A stretch of 64,000 nucleotides of DNA from an uncultured Granulosicoccaceae bacterium (GTDB lineage Bacteria > Pseudomonadota > Gammaproteobacteria > Granulosicoccales > Granulosicoccaceae), in the NCBI GenBank assembly GCA_937930305.1, contig CALGLE010000004.1:220920-284919 (forward strand). The letters run 5' to 3'. Position 1 is the first letter of the stretch. Each line of letters opens with the position of its first letter. A program made the translations under genes and the position numbers. Below, in pieces: positions 51,581 to 54,946 of the stretch. Under the pieces are notes generated by a model that saw nothing but the letters and a program-made list of their open reading frames with translations, had not been told where the DNA came from and searched no databases.

Positions 51581-54500
51581 TTGATCGCTGTAAATTCATT
51601 AGATTATATTTGGCTACTCATCTGTAGCGTCTTAGTGATGATCATGCAGGTGGGTTTTTGCATGCTGGAATCTGGCTTTGTGCGGGCCAAGAACGTCATC
51701 AATGTGGCGTTCAAAAACATGATGGATTTCGTCACAGCGTGCCTGATGTTCTGGGCCTTGGGCTTTGGCCTCATGTATGGCGCCTCGGTGTACGGGTTGT
51801 TTGGCTCCTCATTATTCTTCGTGCAACACGGAAGCGTTAACGGCGCTTTTCTCATCTTTCAAATTATGTTTTGCGGCACAGCCGCCACCATTATCGGTGG
51901 TGCATTAGCTGAGCGCACTCGCTTCTCCGTATTCATCATTATCAGTGTCATTGTGGCCTCGCTAGTGTATCCCGTCGCAGGCCACTGGGCTTGGTCTGGA
52001 GCCGACACAGGGGACAGCACGGGTTGGTTGGGTCAACTGGGGTTTATCGATTTCGCAGGTGGGATGGTTGTCCATGGCGTCGGCGGATGGTTTGCGTTAG
52101 CCGCCGTCATTGTTATCGGTGCTCGCATCGGTCGCTTTGATCCGAATAAGCCGCCGATTCGTGGATGGAATTATCCGGTGTCAACTGCTGGCGTGTTAGT
52201 GCTGTGGTTTGGATGGTTTGGATTTAATGGCGGCAGTGGGTTAATTTTTGATAGCTCGGTAAGCGCTGTTTTACTTAACACCACGTTAGCGGCTGCCAGT
52301 GGAGGCATGACGTTAGTTGTTATTGCTTGGTTGCGTGATCACAGGCCAAACATCGCTGCCTCATTGAATGGTGTGTTGGCGGGATTGGTGGGTGTAACAG
52401 CGGGTTGTCATATTTTCTCCACTTTTGATGCCATCTTAGTGGGAATCATCTGTTCCATCGTTTGTGCCTATGTCACGGTTAAATTGGAAGATTTTGAAAT
52501 TGATGATGTCATCGGGGCCTTCCCGGTGCATGGGGCTGCAGGTGTTGCTGGCACCTTATTAGTCGCCTTATTAGGTGATGCTTCAGCGTTTCCGCAAGGC
52601 CACACGGTTCTTCAGCAATTTGGTGTGCAGGCATTAGGTGCTGCCGCCATTTCAGGCTGGGCATTTGGTGTCGGTTTCTTGCTGCTAGGGCTGTTAAACA
52701 AAGTGATGTCCTTGCGAGTGAGCCCAGAAAATGAAGTGCAGGGATTAAACATATCGGAACACGGTGCTTCAACTGAATTAGTTGATTTACTGGGCGATAT
52801 GCACGTAAAGGGAGATGATGGCGACTTCTCTGGGTCGGTGGAAGTTGAACCGCATACGGAAGTGGGGCAAATTGCATTTGAATACAACCGTGTGCTCGAG
52901 CGTGTTCGACGAGAAATCGAAACCCGTGAAGAAGCTTGGCGACAACTGAAAGAGGCATCACATTTTCAGTTTATTTTTGAAAATACGCACGAAGGTATTG
53001 TGCAGTTGTCGTTAAAAGGTGAAATTTTAGAATCTAATCCAGCGGCAGCGTCATTGTTGGGTTTTAACAATAGCGACCAGTTGGATGAAAAAGCGGGCGA
53101 TTGGCTCTGCCATTCCATATTCGCTGACTCGGAATTTAAAAACCAAATCATTGAAGAGTTGGATGCGTCCGGTGTTGTGCTGGAAAAAGAAATAGACTTC
53201 CGACGTTTTGTTGATGGTAAAGCAGGTTCCATCAGCGCCAGTTTACGATTAGTTGAAGGCAATGAAGATGAAGGCGCTTGTTATCTATTGAGCATGATCG
53301 ATATCAGTGATCGTCGTGATAATGAACGCTTGCGAGTGGCTAAAGATGCGGCTGAAGCTGCTAACGATGCAAAAAGCCTATTTTTAGCGAACATGAGCCA
53401 TGAAATTCGTACCCCTTTAAATGGGGTGACTGGCATGATCGAGTTATTAAGTCGCACGGAACTTTCATCTCAGCAATCTCGCTACACCGATATTGCGGCA
53501 ACTTCTGCTCAAGCCCTTTTAAGCGTTATCAATAACATTCTTGATGTGTCTAAAATTGAAGCCGGTAAGCTTGAACTTGAACACGACGAATTCGATTTAT
53601 ACGAAATATTGGCAGATGTTGCTGATATGTTCGCACCACAAGCCGCTGCTAAGCAACTAGAGATCATTAATGCCGTTTCACCTGATATTCCTGCACGTGT
53701 CATTGGAGATGGTGAACGGCTTCGACAGGTCATTATAAATCTGTTAAACAATGCCGTGAAATTTACAGAATCGGGCACCATTTCACTGGAAACATCGGTA
53801 AAGGCATCGCTGGAAGGCGCTGTGCATCTGCAATTTGCAGTTAAAGATACCGGCTGTGGCATTCCCGATAAAGCGTTGGTTTCATTGTTCGATGCATTTA
53901 CTCAAGCTGATATTTCCACAACTCGGGAATTCGGTGGAACTGGCCTTGGATTAACCATTTGCCGTCAACTCATTGAATTGATGCGTGGCCACATTCGAGT
54001 AGAAAGTGAGATGGGTGTGGGTACTCAATTCATCATCGATTTGGTGATGCCCGTTGGAAATTTAGCCGCCGATGCTCCATCGGGCAACCTAGATACTTCT
54101 CATGCAGGTAAACGGGTGTTGGCTGTTGATGATCATCCGGCCAATTTAACTTTGGTATGCGATCTTTTAAAGCCCTACGGTGTGAATGTAGCCACTGCCG
54201 AAGAAGGGTATTCCGCGCTTAAAGTGATTGAGAAAGCGCATGACATACGTCAGCCGTTTGATTTGATGTTACTGGATTTCCATATGCCCGGTATGGATGG
54301 GGGTGACTTAGCGCGAGCCGTACGAAGAAATCCTAACTTCAACTCGATGAAAATCATCATGCTGACATCAGTCGATCAAGCGATATCATCTGTTGAGCGT
54401 ACTGAATTAGGTATTGAAACCAGTATTACCAAGCCATTACGTGCGTCACGATTTTTCGAAGCTATTAACGCTGTGCTATCGAATTCGGTGGCGCCGAAAC

Positions 54501-54946
54501 GTGCTGCTGATAAAGCAAAAATTGCTGGCAATGCGGCTGTGGTAGACGAGCCCAAAAACAGTATAGGCAGTGTGTTGTTGGTCGAAGATAACCTGGTCAA
54601 TCAAATGGTGGCAGAAGGCATATTACAGGACATCGGATACGCCGTCACCGTTGTTTCAAACGGGCAAGAAGCGTTGGACGCGCTGCAGCAGCAGGTATTT
54701 GATGCGGTACTGATGGATTGTCAAATGCCAGTAATGGATGGTTTTGAAGCGACCCGTCGTTGGCGGGAACACGAACGTTCCCACAGCCAACCCGAGTTAC
54801 CCATTATTGCATTGACCGCCAATGCGGTTAAAGGCGATAGAGAGCGTTGCTTGGTGGCGGGTATGAACGAATACGTGACGAAACCGATTGATGTAAACAC
54901 CTTGTCGGGCGTATTGGCGCAATTGATACAGCAGCGAGCAGCTTAA
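51581..54946 (+). CDS. Ammonium transporter-hybrid histidine kinase fusion
   Basis: This 1121-residue protein combines a complete Amt domain with signalling modules. Residues 8-375: Amt fold with about 11 helices, including '[26 protein letters not shown]', twin-histidine positions H165 ('FAGGMVVH') and H317 ('[12 protein letters not shown]'), and '[12 protein letters not shown]'. Residues 376-460: linker '[33 protein letters not shown]'. Residues 460-580: PAS. Residues 598-670: HisKA with H607 ('[11 protein letters not shown]'). Residues 705-825: HATPase with N, G1 'DTGCGIP' and G2 'GGTGLGL' boxes. Residues 845-965: REC1, D899. Residues 996-1118: REC2, D1046. It probably senses or imports ammonium and signals by phosphorelay. 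It begins with TTG after a CTGGGA-like site. No GlnK, Hpt or output regulator gene is adjacent. Confidence 0.93.

Follow-up and report, generated by a model that had tools for sequence, protein, structure and literature searches.

The solved structures closest to the protein analyzed here are those of two receptors, Sd-Amt1 of Shewanella denitrificans and Ks-Amt5 of Candidatus Kuenenia stuttgartiensis. The output of Sd-Amt1, in the structure paper of 2024, is reportedly a diguanylate cyclase behind a HAMP domain. A counterpart for the signaling half is the ShkA-ShpA system of Caulobacter. ShkA is an HK-REC-REC chain without an Hpt domain and relies on a separate Hpt protein; it lacks an Amt, and c-di-GMP binds to its REC1, which is a pseudo-receiver. 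Ks-Amt5 binds NH4+ but barely translocates it, and the phosphorylation of its kinase responds to ammonium (PMC5764959). The question of how a strictly trimeric sensor is matched with histidine kinases, most of which are dimeric, was raised for this protein (PMC5764959).

The window, a stretch of 64,000 nucleotides (C4:220920-284919) from the 4.2-Mb, 55-contig genome of an uncultured Granulosicoccaceae bacterium, contains an Amt-hybrid histidine kinase gene in mid-contig (51581..54946, forward strand, as are all domains below). The gene starts with TTG, has no internal stop and encodes 1121 aa. A sequence-only reading had proposed that an intact-looking Amt, a kinase and two receivers lie in one chain, and the Pfam domains were found as it described within the single open frame. 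In order, the chain consists of a sensor-type Amt domain (residues 10-397; 51608..52771; Ammonium_transp, E 1e-108), a HAMP-like linker (399-457; 52775..52951), a PAS domain (461-575; 52961..53305), the HisKA dimerization and phosphoacceptor domain (597-662; 53369..53566), the HATPase_c catalytic domain (709-821; 53705..54043), receiver 1 (about 846-962; 54116..54466) and receiver 2 (998-1109; 54572..54907), the last being the better of the two Pfam Response_reg matches. The five residues named by that reading (H165, H317, H607, D899 and D1046) are all present. Further, all hallmarks of a hybrid kinase were found, namely the phosphoacceptor H607 within a 12-residue motif, intact N and G boxes (22 residues), and the receiver Asp and Lys (D899 and K951; D1046 and K1101). 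When 23 hybrids were aligned (16 from Granulosicoccaceae and 7 others), H607, D899 and D1046 were invariant, as were the receiver helper residues D850, K951, D1003 and K1101. Because D899 is kept, REC1 is, judged by its residues, not a pseudo-receiver. Pfam detected neither an Hpt nor a DNA-binding domain in the 1121-aa chain, and no further receiver or Hpt was found within the 64-kb window. As had been noted earlier, no glnK adjoins the gene; two amtB-glnK pairs are present in the genome, both on contigs other than C4.

The segment between Amt and PAS had previously been called a conserved linker. The linker is there, but its HAMP-like character had been missed. It is composed of a helix, a connector and a long helix with a 10-residue motif, and it carries the HAMP second-half motif (21 residues). 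An AlphaFold model (mean pLDDT 80; pTM 0.46, at which the domain arrangement is not reliable) predicted helices at 399-413 and 427-457 joined by the connector. The Pfam HAMP match, obtained by searching the linker alone, was below the cut-off (E 0.006). The linker thus described looks like a HAMP domain.

We compared the Amt module with solved structures. Sd-Amt1 was the closest both by sequence (45-46% identity) and by predicted fold (TMt 0.93-0.94), and its alignment extended across the linker up to residue 443. Identity to Ks-Amt5 was 40%, and AmtB and AfAmt1 (26-30%) were behind both receptors. The twin histidines H165/H317 matched H171 and H326 of Ks-Amt5 and are not misaligned; the Phe gate F97/F215 and the vestibule residues W138/S219 aligned with F103/F223 and W144/S227, respectively. 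From the same alignment, the ammonium site is predicted to comprise Q23, E30, N46, D49 and T103, equivalent to Q24, E31, N47, D50 and T109 of Ks-Amt5, so that both acidic residues of the putative intramembrane site (E30 and D49) are kept. Two ligands of Ks-Amt5 differ here: F50, which is F in Sd-Amt1 too, stands in place of T51, and G106, a position occupied by S in almost all other fusions, in place of T112. Because both threonines are replaced and the T112 hydroxyl is lost, the two-ion ammonium site may be altered. Each of the 18 hybrids from Granulosicoccaceae in the tree has Q23, E30, N46, D49 and T103, and F50 and G106 belong to the same common set.

In the family tree, the sensor-type Amts, including that of the window protein, are apart from the canonical Amts. 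Their outputs vary among kinase, GGDEF and GGDEF-EAL, the latter two listed from profiles built on few sequences and therefore approximate outside the Pfam-checked loci. Of the sensor-type Amts sampled, 92 of 93 had both Q23 and D49, versus 0 of 17 canonical Amts, a control set that does not include the stub L156. The earlier view of the Amt module was right about the pore residues but had overlooked this signature of a sensor rather than a transporter. The pair provides a simple sequence test for distinguishing sensor Amts from transporters in genomes and can be used in annotation.

We consider that the window protein is probably an ammonium receptor like Ks-Amt5 and Sd-Amt1, with a kinase that relays through a separate Hpt protein (probability about 0.7). 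The proposal that a transporter has been turned into an ammonium-sensing kinase, made before any search, is likewise favored by the comparison, the nearest solved relatives being receptors and the ammonium site being mostly kept. The Amt vestibule would select external NH4+, which would then be bound at the intramembrane site around Q23, E30, N46, D49 and T103. Binding would shift the last Amt helix, and the HAMP-like linker, followed by PAS, would pass the change to the HisKA/HATPase core. H607 would then be phosphorylated and the phosphate passed on to the fused receivers, from these to a separate Hpt protein, and from there to a response regulator encoded at another locus. For the window protein, we infer both the dependence on ammonium and the direction of the response.

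It is unlikely, but deserves weighing, that the Amt still imports ammonium and that the kinase reads the transport flux, which would combine transporter and sensor in one protein. All residues of the twin His pair, the Phe gate and the vestibule are intact, and the pore plug of Ks-Amt5 is only partly retained, with bulky aromatics at two of its three pore-blocking positions (F26 and F33 are kept; Y30 is replaced by L29). However, by analogy an intact pore does not imply transport, because Ks-Amt5, which has the same pore residues, does not translocate efficiently (PMC5764959). Further, Q23 and D49 fit the sensor pattern, and the two amtB-glnK pairs of the genome already serve uptake. As a receptor kinase, the window protein would transport little or no ammonium.

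Less probable still is that the Amt was inherited as a membrane anchor and that the true input is another signal read by PAS. This would suit the position of the PAS domain between Amt and kinase. It would also suit a PAS-HisKA-HATPase-REC-REC gene without an Amt part (L147:2999-5059, contig C35 of genome G040), whose neighbors, a methylase-like gene and a receiver protein, are of the same type as those of the Amt-kinase fusions of G028 and G042 (L130 and L132); the L147 gene looks like a natural loss of the sensor. However, an anchor needs none of the ammonium-site residues, which are invariant in the 18 Granulosicoccaceae hybrids and kept in distant phyla. That assembly or annotation had joined separate amt and kinase genes, as they do occur in Colwellia (L128), finds no support at the window locus and is practically dismissed by the single open frame in mid-contig and by the recurrence of the fusion, which lies on independent contigs in 16 family genomes and is also present in several phyla.

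The distribution was determined by searching 48 family genomes with a profile built on the linker and PAS. Full-length matches with the same order from Amt to REC-REC were obtained in 16 of the 48, in agreement with the earlier claim of a true fusion, and the order was also found in Planctomycetota, Nitrospirota and Chloroflexota. The window gene is therefore genuine, but it is not the only one of its receptor family, which has been little studied. Amt fusions whose output is GGDEF or GGDEF-EAL (L036, L037, L038, L051 and L057) form a second clade on a long branch; they are common in Granulosicoccaceae and absent from the window genome. Further, tandem pairs of Amt-hybrid kinases, in which two sensor-Amt genes adjoin, were observed in Chloroflexota (L100:1461-8142 and L108:1482-8169).

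The window gene is located between mtnP and selO. In ten congeneric genomes (G038, G045, G044, G021, G043, G036, G026, G020, G027 and G031), mtnP and selO are neighbors without an intervening Amt-kinase, and in G038 an isochorismatase-like stretch, read by eye, occupies the junction. Because these ten genomes have mtnP-selO without the Amt-kinase, the window gene is most likely a lineage-specific insertion, as judged from gene order. We found no orthologue of it in the other genomes. The tree places it among the Granulosicoccaceae hybrids, a clade with support 100/100, within which its nearest branch is unsure. The junction itself (window:51440-54956) varies in the genus; it is short in many genomes and holds 6.6 kb of other DNA in G023.

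The sequence-only reading had regarded a hybrid form with two receivers and no Hpt or DNA-binding output as unusual. The architecture was as described, but not its rarity, given the 16 of 48 family genomes, a paralogue in the same genome and four other REC-REC kinases without Hpt encoded there. Three further kinases of this genome end in REC-REC-Hpt (counts are from domain-match positions in shared open frames). The REC-REC tail is thus of an ordinary type in this genome, and several kinases may share a single Hpt. Pfam detected a C-terminal Hpt within the chain of the homologues L070, L071, L073, L075 and L077. Among the 23 aligned hybrids, five had Hpt matches (L070, L071 and L077 by Pfam; L072 and L078 by home-made profiles), and none of the 16 Granulosicoccaceae sequences did. 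Because a C-terminal Hpt is found in homologues from other phyla, the simplest reading is that it was probably lost in the Granulosicoccaceae line.

A relay through a separate Hpt is favored by this distribution, with Hpt in the chain of homologues and apparently not in Granulosicoccaceae, and by an orphan Hpt gene on contig C47 (L017:7021-7380, 119 aa), directly followed by a REC-GGDEF-EAL gene (L017:7380-9584). The Hpt step of the window protein would presumably be of this kind, and the C47 protein is a candidate for a shared phosphotransfer hub. It is unlikely to be a dedicated partner: a search for orphan Hpt proteins co-occurring with the fusion had been suggested, and homologues of the C47 Hpt were present in 42 of the 48 family genomes, whether the fusion was present or absent, and its closest orthologues were in G023 and G030, both of which lack the hybrid. 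The receiver protein encoded two genes downstream of the L130 and L132 fusions was not assigned as a partner, since a sensor-like gene of its own comes after it. Gene neighborhood indicated no partner among the other Granulosicoccaceae fusions, whose neighbors differ between genomes.

The paralogue in the window genome is a second hybrid of 1156 aa (L014:9837-13307, contig C1), 54% identical to the window protein. On the same strand, 229 bases upstream of it, is a gene for a kinase-less sensor-type Amt of 468 aa (L014:13537-14943, reverse strand), which ends after the HAMP output coil. We found three further such stubs (L133:4825-6276, L129:4524-5879 and L134:9524-10831), so that a stub lies directly upstream of an Amt-hybrid kinase in four genomes, namely the window genome, G039, G028 and G040. 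All four stubs retain every ammonium-site residue of the hybrids and end soon after DRVRREIEAR or a close variant. Their Amt part is under strong purifying selection (dN 0.07-0.18, with dS saturated). Because the stubs nest inside the Amt-kinase clade, they probably arose by kinase loss, as far as the tree indicates; a single origin was not rejected (p-AU 0.35).

Our preferred reading of the stub, put forward tentatively and at a low probability, is that it co-assembles with Amt-hybrid kinase chains as mixed trimers, for example of two kinase chains and one stub. The stub on C1 is paired with the paralogue and might form mixed trimers with the window protein as well. If true, mixed trimers would explain how an obligate Amt trimer can work with kinase dimers, and they would tune the ammonium response. 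We regard this stub partner, which is located outside the window, as the most interesting lead.

An unfused arrangement was observed in Colwellia sp. 12G3, in which a sensor-type Amt gene (L128:4864-6171) precedes, by 28 bases, a separate gene (L128:6200-9766) for a hybrid kinase with PAS, HisKA, HATPase and two receivers. This arrangement fits an action of the Amt in trans.

The genus thus offers natural hybrid-kinase versions together with a conserved stub, a possible natural solution, which makes the trimer/dimer question directly testable. Further, the finding points to ammonium sensing in Granulosicoccus-type marine bacteria; judged by its named relatives, the window genome most likely belongs to Granulosicoccus. 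The genus is abundant on kelp, and nitrogen exchange with the host has been discussed (PMC9238374).

Among known systems, GrtK/GrtR of Burkholderia glumae shares with the window protein a two-component response to external ammonia, but GrtK has no Amt module (PMC12918730). The AmtB-GlnK uptake system has the Amt fold and pore in common with it, whereas the window protein has a fused kinase and no glnK, and has Q23 and D49 where AmtB-GlnK has A or T and L or I, respectively. Tripartite hybrid kinases of the ArcB/BarA type carry a C-terminal Hpt in the chain, which the window protein lacks. The kinase half gave a fold match to ShkA (6QRJ); in contrast to ShkA, the window protein keeps the REC1 aspartate and has an Amt as its input. 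With Sd-Amt1 (8QJ3/8QJ4/8QPF), it shares Q, E, N, D, T and F50 but has lost the S at the position of G106, and, unlike Sd-Amt1, its output is a hybrid kinase. With Ks-Amt5 (6EU6; PMC5764959), it shares the combination of Amt and HisKA/HATPase, the pore residues, the site residues Q24/E31/N47/D50/T109 and the lack of a nearby glnK, and differs in having F, G and L for T51, T112 and Y30. Ks-Amt5 itself has 679 aa without PAS, HAMP or receivers, to which the window protein adds PAS, the HAMP-like linker and two receivers. We conclude that the window protein is probably an Amt receptor kinase of a known type in a hybrid form with PAS and two receivers.
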